From Draconibacterium orientale (lineage in GTDB: Bacteria > Bacteroidota > Bacteroidia > Bacteroidales > JAADGE01): 32,191 nt of DNA. Within the stretch, counting starts at the first letter, position 1. Every line of letters begins with the position of its first letter. Shown in pieces: positions 12,248-17,161 of the stretch. Made by a program: the position numbers and the translations under genes. The DNA lies in NCBI GenBank assembly GCA_020721645.1, contig DYMH01000030.1, positions 1-32,191 of the forward strand. The letters are read 5' to 3'. Below the pieces are notes generated by a model. That model was given only the letters and a program-made list of their open reading frames with translations. It made no database searches and was not told the DNA's origin.

Positions 12248-12880
12248 ATGGCAGTATTAGTCGGCAAAAAAGCCCCTTTATTTGAAGCTCCCGCAGTTAT
12301 TAACGGGATTGATATCGAAGATAAATTTTCGTTTGAAGATTATCTCGGCAAGAAATACATTGTATTATTTTTTTATCCTGCAGATTTTACTTTCGTTTGC
12401 CCTACCGAAATCATTGCTTTTCAAGAACATAAGGCAGATTTTGAAAAACGCAATGTTCAGGTTATCGGTGTTTCGACCGATTCGCAATTTTCGCATTGGA
12501 AATGGTTGCAAACCGAACAAAAAAACGGCGGCATAAAAGGCGTTACATTTCCTTTGATAGCAGACCAAGCCAAAACAATTTCGGAAAATTATGATGTCTT
12601 GGCAGGCGGTTACGAATATTCCGAAGACGGCGAATTGGAATTTATCGGAACTCCGATGGCTTATCGCGGATTGTTTTTAATCGACCGAGACGGAATTGTT
12701 CAACATCAAGTTGTTAATAATATGCCTTTGGGTCGCAGCATTTCGGAAACGCTTAGAATGGTAGATGCTCTTCAATTTTTTGAAAAAAACGGCGAAGTTT
12801 GCCCGGCAGACTGGCACAGCGGCGATAAAGGCTTGGTTGCAACACAAGAAGGTATTGCCGATTATTTGAGTAAAAAATAA
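12248..12880 (+). CDS. Typical 2-Cys peroxiredoxin (AhpC/Prx1 type)
   Basis: A 210-residue complete peroxiredoxin. The catalytic site reads PADFTFVCPTE with peroxidatic Cys51, Thr48 and Pro44. The resolving Cys185 lies in GEVCPADW near the C-terminus, as in typical dimeric 2-Cys enzymes. It reduces hydrogen and organic peroxides in the cytoplasm, using thioredoxin or AhpF as donor, neither of which is encoded nearby. It could act in the same oxidative-stress response as the superoxide reductase at 4048, whose product is peroxide. The gene is followed by a strong shared terminator at 12900. Confidence 0.92.
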   Translation: MAVLVGKKAPLFEAPAVINGIDIEDKFSFEDYLGKKYIVLFFYPADFTFVCPTEIIAFQEHKADFEKRNVQVIGVSTDSQFSHWKWLQTEQKNGGIKGVTFPLIADQAKTISENYDVLAGGYEYSEDGELEFIGTPMAYRGLFLIDRDGIVQHQVVNNMPLGRSISETLRMVDALQFFEKNGEVCPADWHSGDKGLVATQEGIADYLSKK

Positions 12881-12899
12881 TATTTTCGGGAATGCTTTT

Positions 12900-12938
12900 A
12901 AAAAATAAAAGACTGAATCAATCAGTCTTTTATTTTTT
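12900..12938. terminator. Strong bidirectional terminator between convergent genes
   Basis: A perfect stem of about 17 bp (12900-12916 with 12922-12938) closes on a five-base loop. The A-run on the left and T-run on the right give a U tract for both strands. On the plus strand it ends the peroxiredoxin. On the minus strand its right arm overlaps the stop codon of the last SiaC gene (12930-12932). Confidence 0.9.
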
Positions 12939-13313
12939 TATCGATCTGAGCTCAAAGGGAAGATACGAAATACTTTTCAGTTCTTCGCCGCGTTCGAGCA
13001 TCACTTCATCATCGCCCAAATATTCCCAAACGACTTTAACATCTTTATCTTTTTCCTGAATTTTTTCGAGTAGGACAATTAATTTGGTAATCATTCGAGC
13101 CGTTGATGAATTGTAATAATCCAAACGAAAATTAAATTCGGTGGATTGATTTGGCGAATCAACATATTCTTGTATCCAATTTAAAATCGGCTCAAAAAAT
13201 TTATTCCCGTCTTCGGGCAATACTCTTCCTGTGATGCTGAAAATATTTTGTTTTGAATCCAACAATACAAAAGGTAAATCGTCTGTTGGCTTTATTTTTA
13301 AGGGTTTTTGCAT
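12930..13313 (-). CDS. SiaC/DUF1987-family regulatory phosphoprotein, third paralogue
   Basis: A 127-residue cytoplasmic protein, the last gene of the siaB-siaC cluster. It shares with the other two copies the layout GR.LPED.NKF..PI..W, then FRLDYYNSSTARM, then DDEVMLERGEEL and a final PFEL. In Pseudomonas, SiaC is phosphorylated by the kinase SiaB on a Thr within an Asn-Thr-Ser context and, when unphosphorylated, activates a diguanylate cyclase. The equivalent residue here would be Ser69 in NSS. It starts 13 bases after the stop of the second copy. Family assignment is firm, partner and output inferred. Confidence 0.85.
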   Translation of the reverse strand: MQKPLKIKPTDDLPFVLLDSKQNIFSITGRVLPEDGNKFFEPILNWIQEYVDSPNQSTEFNFRLDYYNSSTARMITKLIVLLEKIQEKDKDVKVVWEYLGDDEVMLERGEELKSISYLPFELRSIKK

Positions 13314-13326
13314 TTTATATTTACTG

Positions 13327-13716
13327 TTATTCTTCTTGACGATATGATGTAATTTCGAATGGGATATTGACCGTTTGCCTGAAATCTTCGCCGTTTTCGC
13401 CCATCATTTCATCTGATTCTTCAAAAATCCATCGTACTTTAACTTGATGACCCGATTTGTACATTCCTTCGAGAACAACTAAAATATCGACAATTTTACG
13501 AACGGTTGCCGAATTGTAATATTCTAAATTGAGAACGAAAACCGTTTCGGGATTTGGATTTTTGGAATATTCTCGTAACCAAGCCACAATGGGATCGTAA
13601 AATTCATTCACATCTTCGGGCAGGGATTTGCCGATGACTTCAAACGTATTATTTGCTTTGTCTAAAACCACTTTCGGGTGGTCGTTACTTGGTTCTATAT
13701 AGAAAACATCTTTCAT
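13327..13716 (-). CDS. SiaC/DUF1987-family regulatory phosphoprotein, second paralogue
   Basis: A 129-residue protein with the same fold signature: GKSLPEDVNEFYDPIVAWL, then LNLEYYNSATVRK, and SDEMMGENGEDF before PFEI. It is the most divergent of the three: after the presumed phosphosite Ser69 the next residue is Ala70 rather than Ser, and ERG in the acidic loop is ENG. It is separated from the first copy by a 237-base gap, so it and the third copy may have their own promoter. Confidence 0.85.
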   Translation of the reverse strand: MKDVFYIEPSNDHPKVVLDKANNTFEVIGKSLPEDVNEFYDPIVAWLREYSKNPNPETVFVLNLEYYNSATVRKIVDILVVLEGMYKSGHQVKVRWIFEESDEMMGENGEDFRQTVNIPFEITSYRQEE

Positions 13717-13953
13717 CTGTTTATAATTTTATTTTGGCGAGATATTTTTGTGACAGCAAAACCACACGTTTTGCAGATTTCCAACAAATTATTTGATTTT
13801 TTTTCTTATTATTATGCTTTTACTCACTTTTTTATTTATTTTTTTGTGTTCGTGAGGGCTGTGCCGTTGTGTGTTTTACCACAATCATGGACATTTCATG
13901 CGTATATTATAAATTTTTGCTTAAATTGTGGTGGTAAAAAATTATTGGATTGA
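13717..13953. other. Non-coding gap inside the siaB-siaC cluster
   Basis: The 237 bases lie between SiaC copies 1 and 2, whereas the other junctions in this cluster are 2 and 13 bases. TTTTACCAC (13874-13882) and GTGGTAAAA (13931-13939) form an inverted repeat with a 48-base spacer, and GCAAAA/TTTTGC forms a small hairpin near 13756-13774. No protein in this gap looks real. It may hold a promoter or a decayed mobile repeat. Confidence 0.5.
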
Positions 13954-14352
13954 TTATAAATCGAAATCGTCCGATTCATATTCGATGATATCGAAGGGTA
14001 ATTTCGAGACTGCTTTTATTTCCTGTCCGCGTTCCTGAGACATTTCATCACCTTGTTCGAACAACCAAACGACTTTAACTTTTTTGCCGGCGATATGCAA
14101 TTTCTCGAGCAACATAATCAATTTCATAACTTGGCGTGCCGATGATGAATTGAAATATTCTAAATCGAATTTGAATTCTGTTTCCGGATTTGGGTCGGCT
14201 ATATATGCTTCAAGCCACTCATAAATGGGCATATAAAATTTGTTGGGGTCTTCGACTATGGAACGCCCCGAAATTTTGAAAATATTTTCTTCTTTGTTGA
14301 ATATAACTTCCGGATTATTTTTCGATTTTTCAATCGTTAATGGCTGAGGCAT
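13954..14352 (-). CDS. SiaC/DUF1987-family regulatory phosphoprotein, first paralogue
   Basis: A 132-residue protein starting only 2 bases after the SiaB-like stop, so translationally coupled to the kinase. Motifs are GRSIVEDPNKFYMPIYEWL, FDLEYFNSSSARQ (Ser69-Ser70-Ser71 after Asn68) and GDEMSQERGQEI before PFDI, then a short acidic tail. By analogy with Pseudomonas it would be the main substrate of the neighbouring kinase, with the phosphorylated residue in the NSSS stretch. No diguanylate cyclase lies in the window, so the downstream output is unknown. Confidence 0.87.
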   Translation of the reverse strand: MPQPLTIEKSKNNPEVIFNKEENIFKISGRSIVEDPNKFYMPIYEWLEAYIADPNPETEFKFDLEYFNSSSARQVMKLIMLLEKLHIAGKKVKVVWLFEQGDEMSQERGQEIKAVSKLPFDIIEYESDDFDL

Positions 14353-14354
14353 AA

Positions 14355-15458
14355 TTAAAGTTTTACGGTAAGTGAAAAAAATGAATATTTATCGTTAAGC
14401 GGAATGAACCGGTAGTTCAGTTTTTCGTCTGTTTCGCGTGCCAAATCAATTAATCCTAAACCTGCACTTCCGGATTCTGTAATACGTCCTTCACGTAAAT
14501 ATTTACGATACATTTCGTTGAGCTCTTCCAAACTCATCGAATTTACTAAATCTATCTGACTTTTTAAATTTTCTGTTTTAGTATTGTCTATATAATTTCC
14601 GGTGCCTATTTCAAAGCGTCCGTTACGTATTCCAATCATAAAAATTCCTTCACGCTCGTTATCGACAACATAGCCATGTTTACTGATATTTTGAAGTATT
14701 TCGACCAAAAAGTGATAAACTTTTTTTTGCATTTTCAACTTCATGCTGTGCATATTGTCTTCCACCATACGTAAAACCGGAGCAACTGCTTCCTGCGAAA
14801 AACTGCCTTTGTGCATCATCAGCACACGTTCCGAGCTTACAAGTTTATGAATTTTTTGGGCGTCATCTATTTTTACATCATTTTCATCAGATTTTGCGGG
14901 TGCATTTTCATCGACCTCTTCACTTTCCAATTTTATTTGCATGAAAAAAATTGAACGTTCGTCGTTGATTTTGACGAAAGCATAAGGCAATTTACCCTTT
15001 GTTTTTCGCACCATTTCGATAAATCCCAAACCGGCTCCGCCTTTTTCGTTGATTTGTTTGTTGGTTAATACCGTTTTGTACAAATCGTTCAGTTCTTTTT
15101 TGTCGGAGGTATTAACGCGGTCTAATTTTTCTTTGACTTGGGCAATTTTATCATTATCAATCAAATTGGCTGAAATAATATAAAATGCTTTGCCCACATT
15201 TCGTGTCATAAAAAAATCAGATTCTTCCGTCGGTTCATCAAAATCTTCGCCATCGGCATATCGGGCGATGTTTTGGAAACTTTCTATCATCAGAAACGAA
15301 AGTTTGTTTCGCAACTTGGAATGCTCTTCGTCCATGTTATTTTTTATCAGCTCGGTAGCCATTGCAAGGGCTGTATTGCTGAAACTTCCGCGATATGTGA
15401 AACTGATTTTATCTCGTTCCAGTACTTGAAAAAATTCGTAAACGGTTTCGGCTGTCAT
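14355..15458 (-). CDS. Tandem-duplicated SiaB-family kinase
   Basis: A 367-residue protein made of two SiaB-like (HATPase-fold) domains, about 1-178 and 200-367, joined by an acidic linker. Each half has the N-box (MIESFQNIARYADG with Glu59 and Asn63; LVEILQNISKHG with Glu253 and Asn257) and the Gly-rich ATP lid (GGAGLGFIEM near 140; GSAGLGLIDL near 330). SiaB proteins are normally a single domain of about 180 residues and phosphorylate SiaC on Ser/Thr. Both halves look catalytically intact; the two are clearly diverged, so the fusion is old. It heads the minus-strand cluster with three SiaC genes. No SiaA-type PP2C phosphatase is adjacent. Confidence 0.85.
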   Translation of the reverse strand: MTAETVYEFFQVLERDKISFTYRGSFSNTALAMATELIKNNMDEEHSKLRNKLSFLMIESFQNIARYADGEDFDEPTEESDFFMTRNVGKAFYIISANLIDNDKIAQVKEKLDRVNTSDKKELNDLYKTVLTNKQINEKGGAGLGFIEMVRKTKGKLPYAFVKINDERSIFFMQIKLESEEVDENAPAKSDENDVKIDDAQKIHKLVSSERVLMMHKGSFSQEAVAPVLRMVEDNMHSMKLKMQKKVYHFLVEILQNISKHGYVVDNEREGIFMIGIRNGRFEIGTGNYIDNTKTENLKSQIDLVNSMSLEELNEMYRKYLREGRITESGSAGLGLIDLARETDEKLNYRFIPLNDKYSFFSLTVKL

Positions 15459-15595
15459 ATTTTTTGCTTATGATACGGTTGTAAATTTAAGATATTGATA
15501 CTTAAATAAGAAATTTTTTTTACGAAATATGATTTTTTGTTGAAAAATGATTTAAAAAGTGATAAATTAAAAGTGAAAAACAGTATTCCTTTTAT

Positions 15596-15701
15596 TATAC
15601 TAAGCACGCTCATAAATTGCGTTTTACAAATTGTTTAACTTTTTGATATTAAAAGTAATCAGCATATCAGCACATCAAAAAATCAACCAATCAAAGTATA
15701 T
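15596..15701. repeat. Exact 106-bp direct repeat, copy 1
   Basis: This stretch, from TATACTAAGCACGCTCATAA to ACCAATCAAAGTATAT, is identical base for base to 19941-20046. It lies between the start of the SiaB-like gene and the stop of RlmD, 32 bases past the RlmD stop on the minus strand. Read on the minus strand it is rich in TGAT and GCTGAT words. It has no open frame and no clear terminal inverted repeats. Confidence 0.95.
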
Positions 15702-15733
15702 ATTCAATATTTTCATTACACTCATTCGTTTTA

Positions 15734-17161
15734 TTATAATTTCACCAAGAGTGCGATATTTTCTACATGGTGTGTGTGCGGAAACATATCAACGGGTTGA
15801 AATTTTACGGTTTTATATTTTTCGCCAAACAATTGAATATCACGAGCTTGCGTGGCAGGATTACAACTCACATAAACAATTTTTTCGGGCTCGGCTTCCA
15901 ATACTGTTTCCACAACTTTGGGATGCAAACCTGCACGCGGCGGGTCGAGCAAAATAATATCCGGTCTGCCTTTTTCTGCAATAAAATTTTGTGTTAAAAT
16001 ATCTTTCATATCTCCGGCATAAAATTCAGTATTCTCGATATTGTTTATTTTTGAATTGATTTTAGCATCTTCGATTGCTTCGGGTACGTATTCTAAACCA
16101 ATGACATGTTTCACATTTCGTGCCACAAAATTTGCAATAGTTCCGGTTCCGGTATATAAATCGTAAACAATTTCCGTGCCTTTAAATTCTGCAAATTCTC
16201 GTATCTTTTTATACAATTGATAAGCCTGTTTTGAGTTGGTTTGATAAAACGATTTTGGACCAACTTTAAACTTCAAACCTTCCATTTCTTCAAAAAAATG
16301 GTCTTTGCCTTTGTACAAAATAATATCCAAATCGAGAATCGTATCGTTGCTTTTGGGGTTGATAACATACATCAAGGACGTAATTTCGGGAAAACGTTCG
16401 GCGATAAAATTTAAAAGCAACTCACGATGTTCTTTCATTTCATTGAAAAAAGATACAATCACCATCACTTCGCCCGAATCAGGCGTGCGAATAATGAGGT
16501 TTCGCAAAAATCCGCTGACTTGTTTGAGGTCGAAAAATTCAAAATCATTTTCGATACAAAAACGTTTCACTTCGTTACGAATTTCATCGGAAGGTTTGGA
16601 TTGCAAAAAACACTCTTCGATATCAAGAACCTTATCAAATCGCCCCGGAATGTGGTAACCCAAAGCATTTTGTGAGTCCGAAACATCGTTTCCCTTTTCG
16701 GCATCGGTGAGCCAACGTTTGTTGGAAAAAGTGTATTCCAATTTGTTTCGATAGTGTGTCAATTCTTCCGAGCCAAGTATGGGTAAAACCTCGGCATCAG
16801 TAACCTTTCCAATCCGTTTGAGGGTTTCAACAACTTGCCGGTGTTTGTAAAAAAGCTGGTCGGTATAACTGAGATTTTGTCGTGTGCAACCTCCGCAAAC
16901 ATCAAAATGTTTGCAGAAAGGCTTCGTTCGTTTTTCGGAATAATGTATAAATCGAACAGGTTTTGCTTCGCGATAATTTTTTTTTCGCTTCACAACCTGA
17001 ATATCAACCACATCGCCCGGAACTACATTGTTTACAAAAACTGTCAATTCGCCGCTTTCGGCATTTGAATTTTTAATTTTAGCAACTGCTTTTCCTTCAA
17101 TAGCTAAATCGATAATTTCGATGTTTTCGTAAATCGGATATTTATTATTATAATGTCTCAT
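15734..17161 (-). CDS. rlmD: 23S rRNA (uracil-C5)-methyltransferase, RlmD type
   Basis: A 475-residue class I SAM methyltransferase of the TrmA/RlmD group. An N-terminal TRAM RNA-binding domain (about 12-70) is followed by the iron-sulfur cluster cysteines Cys83, Cys89, Cys92 (CKHFDVCGGC) and a fourth in DIEEC. The SAM part has VYDLYTGTGTIANF, the LLDPPRAGLHP motif, and the catalytic cysteine Cys433 in VYVSCNPATQARD. It adds a methyl group to a uracil of 23S rRNA (U1939 in E. coli numbering). In Bacteroidota a single gene often stands for this family, so the exact target could also be the RlmC or RlmCD site. It diverges from YgiQ. Confidence 0.88.
   Translation of the reverse strand: MRHYNNKYPIYENIEIIDLAIEGKAVAKIKNSNAESGELTVFVNNVVPGDVVDIQVVKRKKNYREAKPVRFIHYSEKRTKPFCKHFDVCGGCTRQNLSYTDQLFYKHRQVVETLKRIGKVTDAEVLPILGSEELTHYRNKLEYTFSNKRWLTDAEKGNDVSDSQNALGYHIPGRFDKVLDIEECFLQSKPSDEIRNEVKRFCIENDFEFFDLKQVSGFLRNLIIRTPDSGEVMVIVSFFNEMKEHRELLLNFIAERFPEITSLMYVINPKSNDTILDLDIILYKGKDHFFEEMEGLKFKVGPKSFYQTNSKQAYQLYKKIREFAEFKGTEIVYDLYTGTGTIANFVARNVKHVIGLEYVPEAIEDAKINSKINNIENTEFYAGDMKDILTQNFIAEKGRPDIILLDPPRAGLHPKVVETVLEAEPEKIVYVSCNPATQARDIQLFGEKYKTVKFQPVDMFPHTHHVENIALLVKL

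Follow-up and report, generated by a model that had tools for sequence, protein, structure and literature searches.

In Pseudomonas aeruginosa, the kinase SiaB phosphorylates Thr68 of SiaC, the phosphatase SiaA removes the phosphate and unphosphorylated SiaC binds its target (PMC7278518). In the worked-out Pseudomonas case, as set out in the passages of PMC8457831 and PMC7278518 that deal with it, SiaC activates a diguanylate cyclase; residues for SiaB dimer formation have also been reported in P. aeruginosa (PMC7278518). Here we describe a related locus of Draconibacterium orientale (Bacteroidota; Bacteroidales), in which the gene for a kinase with two SiaB-type domains, referred to here as SiaBB, is followed by three genes for SiaC (DUF1987) proteins. 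The locus lies in a window of 32,191 nucleotides, the whole stretch of DNA that was analysed, which is a single contig (DYMH01000030.1; C211) within the 3.83-Mb assembly GCA_020721645.1. The explanation that we favour, to which we give about an even chance of being right, is that one kinase serves several SiaCs with different targets in trans and that the phosphatase is encoded elsewhere, which would make the system a relative of the SiaABC switch that is independent of cyclic di-GMP.

A two-domain kinase and three SiaC proteins

SiaBB (positions 14355–15458, minus strand; 367 amino acids (aa)) matches PF19788 (DUF6272) twice, with 219 bits in total over two stretches against a curated cut-off of 26.6 (111.1 bits for the N-half and 118.8 bits for the C-half). 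It also matches the NCBIfam model NF038262, 'SiaB family protein kinase', over two stretches with 250 bits (cut-off of 85), and its score for NF038264, the Pseudomonas SiaB equivalog, is 117.8 bits, below the cut-off of 225. Both halves match P. aeruginosa SiaB (PDB 6kko_A): in a search with the full-length protein the best stretch lies in the C-half, and the N-half gives its own match when searched alone. A first-pass annotation of this DNA had described two SiaB-like domains, each with an intact N-box and Gly-rich ATP lid, and this description holds for both halves. The N-half (residues 1–180; 14919–15458, minus strand) has the N-box residues E59 and N63, the lid GGAGLG at 140–145 and SAN at 96–98; the C-half (residues 203–367; 14358–14852, minus strand) has E253 and N257, the lid GSAGLG at 330–335 and TGN at 286–288. 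The halves are 32% identical to each other. In all 20 family loci the motif cores are invariant (E..QN in both halves, GAGLG in the N-half and SAGLG in the C-half), and the difference between SAN and TGN is constant. Mean identity in seven family genomes outside genus g4 is 0.71 for the N-half, 0.71 for the C-half and 0.36 for the linker. An AlphaFold2 model of SiaBB from a three-sequence input (mean predicted local distance difference test 61.6; predicted template modelling score 0.55) is too poor to judge the packing of the halves and served solely for a Foldseek search, in which 6kko SiaB was the top match and SpoIIAB and RsbW gave weaker matches. By its domains and motifs, SiaBB is thus classed as a SiaB-type kinase, and we predict that it has kinase activity.

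The SiaC genes lie behind SiaBB on the same minus strand in the order SiaC1 (13954–14352; 132 aa), which begins after 2 bp, SiaC2 (13327–13716; 129 aa) and SiaC3 (12930–13313; 127 aa). Each exceeds the PF09345 cut-off of 24.5 bits (126.9, 121.5 and 117.9 bits, respectively), and the three are 40–46% identical in pairwise comparison, in agreement with the first description of diverged SiaC paralogues of 127–132 residues. Their scores for the SiaC equivalog NF038265 (69.6, 75.3 and 81.9 bits, in ascending order) are below its cut-off of 150 bits. In a gap-free alignment of SiaC1 with P. aeruginosa SiaC, Ser69 takes the position of Thr68. The acceptor motif Y-x-N-[TS] is present in all three proteins, as YFNSSS in SiaC1, YYNSAT in SiaC2 and YYNSST in SiaC3, and the Ser aligned with Thr68 (Ser69 in each) is the predicted phospho-acceptor.

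Conservation of the array

Judged by the sequences of related genomes, the layout is neither a product of chance nor unique to the D. orientale genome. SiaBB orthologs (62–71% identity) occur in 19 of the 20 family relatives searched, the exception being a genome that is 70% complete (G020); chance and mis-assembly were rejected since the layout recurs across the family. Two to five SiaC genes lie behind SiaBB in each of the 18 family loci with uncut arrays, the window included (two in five loci, three in nine, four in three and five in one); this count omits G016 and G019, in which the arrays are cut by contig ends. A SiaC1 ortholog is present in all 19 family loci whose contig extends past SiaBB. 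SiaC2 and SiaC3 form ortholog groups in seven genomes outside g4, which cover six of the seven genera, and the g4 genomes have their own tandem SiaC copies in place of these groups. Within the seven non-g4 genomes, mean identity is 0.68, 0.54 and 0.69 in the SiaC1, SiaC2 and SiaC3 groups, respectively, and 0.38–0.45 between groups. One genome (G002) has an extra fourth SiaC that is close to SiaC2, and in another (G001, L067:9210–9836) the gene for a Uma2 protein, a putative endonuclease, stands between SiaC1 and SiaC2.

Each of the family's 55 array SiaCs has Ser at the position of Thr68. For comparison, the loci that were fetched, which cover some of the SiaC loci in the relatives, contain a further 51 SiaC domains, with Thr in 30 and Ser in 21; in the D. 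orientale genome itself, 12 other SiaCs were compared and 10 of these have Thr. The Ser/Thr state tracks the SiaBB tree (5 changes, compared with about 18 in shuffles): one SiaBB clade has 19 Thr and 4 Ser, the rest have 3 Thr and 34 Ser, and six have no linked SiaC. This match is indistinguishable from common descent, and we dropped it as separate evidence.

Tyr66, Asn68 and Ser69 are invariant across the three SiaC groups. We defined group-specific residues as those that are fixed within a group (at most one exception per group) and different between groups, with two tail positions excluded. Such residues are found at 5 of 10 positions equivalent to SiaD contacts (30, 32, 70, 72 and 108) compared with 7 of 120 others (P = 0.0005; Fisher's test), where the contacts are taken from a single passage of PMC8457831 on the SiaC–SiaD interface. 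Diverged ortholog groups, with specific residues that lie partly at equivalents of the SiaD interface, would fit several targets, and to that extent the first-pass proposal of a multi-target switch gains support.

Spread and age of the fused kinase

In a survey of 395 genomes of the class, a SiaB relative was found in 209, and at least 56 (counted by eye) have a match over both halves of SiaBB. A tree of 147 SiaB domains places all 57 N-halves in one clade (FastTree support of 0.995), and the 57 C-halves fall elsewhere, with six single domains among them; several long branches were flagged in the domain trees. In an IQ-TREE analysis of 127 domains, the N-halves stand together on one side of a branch (SH-like approximate likelihood ratio test (SH-aLRT) of 99), and the C-halves are not supported as a clade (2 changes). 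Most simply, the fusion would be one old event that predates the split of the SiaBB lineages. A recent duplication of a kinase half is rejected by these trees, in which the N-halves form one branch.

We also examined what accompanies other SiaBB genes, at loci chosen from the best SiaBB matches (42 for the SiaC count and 46 for the PP2C count below); a single genome contributes several of these loci, and paralogues within family genomes are included. One SiaC follows the kinase gene in 27 of the 42 cases, two follow in 2 (G036 and G055), a fused SiaC is found in 6 and none in 7, one of which is at a contig end. The fused layout with its expanded set of SiaCs is present throughout the family; but because most other SiaBB genes have just one SiaC behind them and the fusion appears to be older, the trees and gene counts indicate that the kinase was fused and the SiaCs multiplied on separate occasions. 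Nor are the two heads of the kinase explained by several substrates, given the 27 genes with a single SiaC and the 6 with a single fused one.

In total, the D. orientale genome has 15 SiaC, 20 DUF6272 and 41 SpoIIE-type PP2C matches. Four further two-domain SiaB proteins are encoded on contigs C189, C181, C75 and C224, of which the C224 protein is a SiaB–SiaB–SiaC fusion of 505 aa (G000, L027:6030–7547). In the C75 paralogue (L028:8561–9643), the N-half has Asp at the position of the N-box Glu and an altered lid, GASLAM, and the C-half passes the motif test. Other architectures include a 1,540-aa fusion of a Reg_prop propeller, Y_Y_Y, SpoIIE and two SiaB domains that is followed by SiaC (G095 C55, L116:5322–9944). 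A 639-aa protein (G055 C34, L117:5132–7051) has one SiaB domain after about 490 residues that have no Pfam match at an E value of 0.001.

A candidate phosphatase encoded outside the locus

The locus had first been described as lacking a local phosphatase or cyclase. Neither a PP2C nor a cyclase was found near the array within the window, and the arrangement of SiaABCD, with a PP2C in the same operon, is not seen there; but contig C178 of the same genome encodes a PP2C that is likely to be cognate, and in two relatives an ortholog of it lies beside the array. Using a home-made PP2C profile, we found a PP2C within four genes of SiaBB at 23 of 46 other SiaBB loci; among the 20 family arrays this holds for 2, and these are from genus g6. 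Eight neighbours of SiaBB–SiaC were chosen for Pfam annotation, and seven are SpoIIE proteins and one is a histidine kinase. The array-adjacent PP2C of g6 combines TPR and SpoIIE domains (594 aa in G008), and its full-length relative in the D. orientale genome is the C178 protein (56%). At E ≤ 1e-90, every one of the seven non-g4 genomes, its own included, contains a single match to this protein; the ortholog in G002 is cut by a contig end.

A PP2C tree was constructed from 40 of the 41 PP2Cs of the D. orientale genome (the partial C39 protein was excluded), 18 SiaBB-linked PP2Cs (one linked fragment of less than 300 aa was excluded) and the two from g6. The C178 protein is the sole D. orientale PP2C in a clade with the g6 pair and nine linked PP2Cs from seven loci (SH-aLRT of 95). 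By these sequence relationships, the C178 PP2C is likely to be the counterpart of SiaA and is our candidate for the cognate phosphatase.

Possible outputs other than a cyclase

The output of SiaABCD is the GGDEF cyclase SiaD. No GGDEF match was found in the D. orientale genome or in the 20 family relatives, the assemblies of which are incomplete, and 1 of 60 relatives has a match. The SiaD mechanism is therefore unlikely to apply in this family, and with 15 SiaCs and no GGDEF match in the D. orientale genome, SiaC would have to act otherwise than through a cyclase.

SiaC modules elsewhere in these genomes hint, by their neighbours, at what the targets may be. The gene order SpoIIE, SiaB, SiaC, a gene for 1,044–1,093 aa and genes for about 300 and about 153 aa is kept in all ten loci (L134–L143) that were fetched since their SiaC resembled that of contig C121 of D. 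orientale (L019). The C121 copy of the 1,044–1,093-aa gene encodes a TerB-ABC transporter, which hints at this transporter as a candidate non-cyclase output of SiaC. The C224 fusion gene is followed by genes encoding an ion-channel protein and a polyphosphate kinase, and on its other side is the gene of a hydrogenase-like/PAS/SpoIIE sensor phosphatase; the order of fusion, about 663 aa and about 690 aa recurs in three loci (L096, L098 and L099).

A proposed switch of one kinase with several SiaC substrates

Several targets in trans are the best-supported reading of the retained and diverged SiaC copies. On this explanation, SiaBB would be a covalently joined kinase pair that phosphorylates Ser69 of the three SiaCs encoded behind it, and the TPR–SpoIIE phosphatase from contig C178 would remove the phosphate, both by analogy with SiaB and SiaA of P. 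aeruginosa (PMC7278518). Each unphosphorylated SiaC would then use its Ser69/α2 face to dock on a target of its own in trans, and a single balance of kinase and phosphatase would thereby set several outputs. The array is presumably co-transcribed, and separate targets are predicted for each SiaC.

Several observations weigh against this proposal. Across the 20 family loci, no gene for an output accompanies the array and only the upstream RNA methyltransferase gene recurs; an output gene adjoining the array was rejected on these grounds (in g4, the two genes scanned downstream of the array encode a PcrB-like protein and a prolyl oligopeptidase family peptidase). Orthologs of the C178 protein (E ≤ 1e-90) were found in none of the 14 g4 genomes, in which weaker PP2C matches do occur. 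Because 13 of these genomes keep SiaBB (12 of them show SiaC1, and the contig of the remaining one ends at SiaBB), the C178 phosphatase could not serve all arrays; the joint absence of its ortholog, SiaC2 and SiaC3 from g4 is suggestive, but reflects a single phylogenetic split. Within the C178 clade, three of the nine linked PP2Cs are tandem genes of one locus, and 9 of the 18 linked PP2Cs fall outside it, so linkage alone marks no single phosphatase type. Among group-conserved positions alone, the enrichment at the contacts named in that interface passage has P = 0.08. The SiaC face in question may also bind SiaB, so group-specific residues need not imply separate outputs. Finally, Ala replaces Gly near the ATP site of the N-half, the activity of which may differ.

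The strongest alternative bears on the kinase only and could hold together with several targets in trans. Just one half of SiaBB, by conservation the N-half, may need to be active, and the other may replace the second SiaB subunit of a dimer for regulation or docking; we consider this on balance unlikely, with a sizeable chance of being correct. The residues reported for dimer formation by P. aeruginosa SiaB (PMC7278518) are in its favour, as is the state of the kinase motifs in 57 SiaBB proteins, which are intact in 56 N-halves and 52 C-halves. In the ortholog group of the window, however, the C-half motifs are invariant, and the change from Gly to Ala is in the N-half.

It is also conceivable, if improbable, that SiaC1 is the sole carrier of output and that SiaC2 and SiaC3 are decoys that buffer SiaBB and set a threshold for SiaC1. 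Consistent with such titration, SiaC1 is present at every visible family locus and evolves slowly in g4 (mean identity of 0.83), where the later copies, matched by their place in the array, differ more (0.57 for the second, 0.47 for the third and 0.68 for the fourth), and the copy number ranges from two to five. However, SiaC3 is as conserved as SiaC1 outside g4 (0.69 and 0.68) and has fixed residues of its own, which a mere decoy does not need.

We give only a small chance to a division of labour in which the N-half and the C-half phosphorylate different SiaCs. The halves are old and distinct lineages with intact motifs in the ortholog group and the constant SAN/TGN difference, all of which this idea would accommodate, but most other SiaBB genes are paired with a single separate or fused SiaC, and 5 of the 57 proteins have a C-half with damaged motifs. 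Redundant tandem duplication without special function is very unlikely: copy number varies among genomes and the fourth SiaC of G002 is close to SiaC2, but the groups are kept across genera, the conservation of SiaC1 (0.68) and SiaC3 (0.69) is near that of the kinase (0.71; SiaC2, 0.54) and all 55 copies retain the acceptor Ser.

More broadly, and with a confidence that falls somewhat short of even, we suggest that SiaB and SiaC constitute a general partner-switching network in Bacteroidia that lack GGDEF proteins, with an old SiaBB heterodimer, a growing array of serine-type SiaCs, each of which would steer its own non-cyclase target (a transporter or a channel, for example), and phosphatases in trans. 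Together, the array, the old two-headed kinase and the candidate phosphatase make a SiaC partner other than a cyclase directly testable, and the family arrays, in which a single kinase faces between two and five substrates, form a natural series for studies of specificity.

Gene neighbourhood

Bacteroidota promoters have the consensus TTTG-N17–23-TAnnTTTG. This pattern has no match within the 237-bp gap between SiaC1 and SiaC2 (13717–13953), and sigma-70-like matches in the region are no more numerous than in shuffled sequence; an internal promoter between the two genes was dropped on both counts. No terminator-like sites were found across 12700–15900. A 91-aa open reading frame on the plus strand over the gap (13678–13953) looks spurious in our judgement.

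Upstream of SiaBB is a gene for an RNA (uracil-5-)methyltransferase (15734–17161, minus strand; Pfam tRNA_U5-meth_tr and TRAM), which is conserved beside the array in 15 loci (family f2). We regard it as a conserved neighbour and make no claim that it belongs to the switch. A single-domain SiaB–SiaC pair is located behind the gene for a THUMP/RlmL-type RNA methyltransferase in five loci (L017, from contig C264 of D. orientale, L125, L128, L131 and L133), and SiaBB of the window likewise sits behind an RNA methyltransferase gene. Type IX secretion signals are present in the D. orientale genome, in keeping with its assignment to the Bacteroidota.

Comparison with known systems

The component families of the locus are known. 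In searches of open-access papers in PubMed Central, no paper was found on SiaB/SiaC in Bacteroidota, on DUF6272 or on this architecture; the ancient two-domain fusion, the array of serine-type SiaCs and the absence of a cyclase are without earlier description in the literature searched.

The cyanobacterial regulators slr1658/slr1659 (NCBIfam superfamilies) bear a weak resemblance to the locus, in that SiaBB matches slr1658 and two of the SiaCs match slr1659 families, but the scores are far under the curated cut-offs (46 versus 100, and 21 and 18 versus 100). With the SpoIIAB/RsbW–SpoIIAA/RsbV–SpoIIE/RsbU switches, the locus shares a GHKL-fold kinase, a small phospho-acceptor and a SpoIIE-type phosphatase; here, however, the substrate is SiaC/DUF1987, which has no Pfam STAS match, and no sigma factor was seen beside the array. 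In one genome of the same order (G036, L081 C662:1925–4701), an RsbW-like HATPase and a STAS protein are encoded behind SiaBB–SiaC–SiaC, so that two types of partner switch are joined. Compared with P. aeruginosa SiaABCD, the locus has a fused two-domain kinase, three SiaCs and Ser in place of Thr68, the PP2C lies outside the locus, and no GGDEF match accompanies it in its own and the 20 family genomes. The two systems share a SiaB-type kinase encoded beside a SiaC-type substrate, a conserved acceptor motif and a PP2C as the likely partner.

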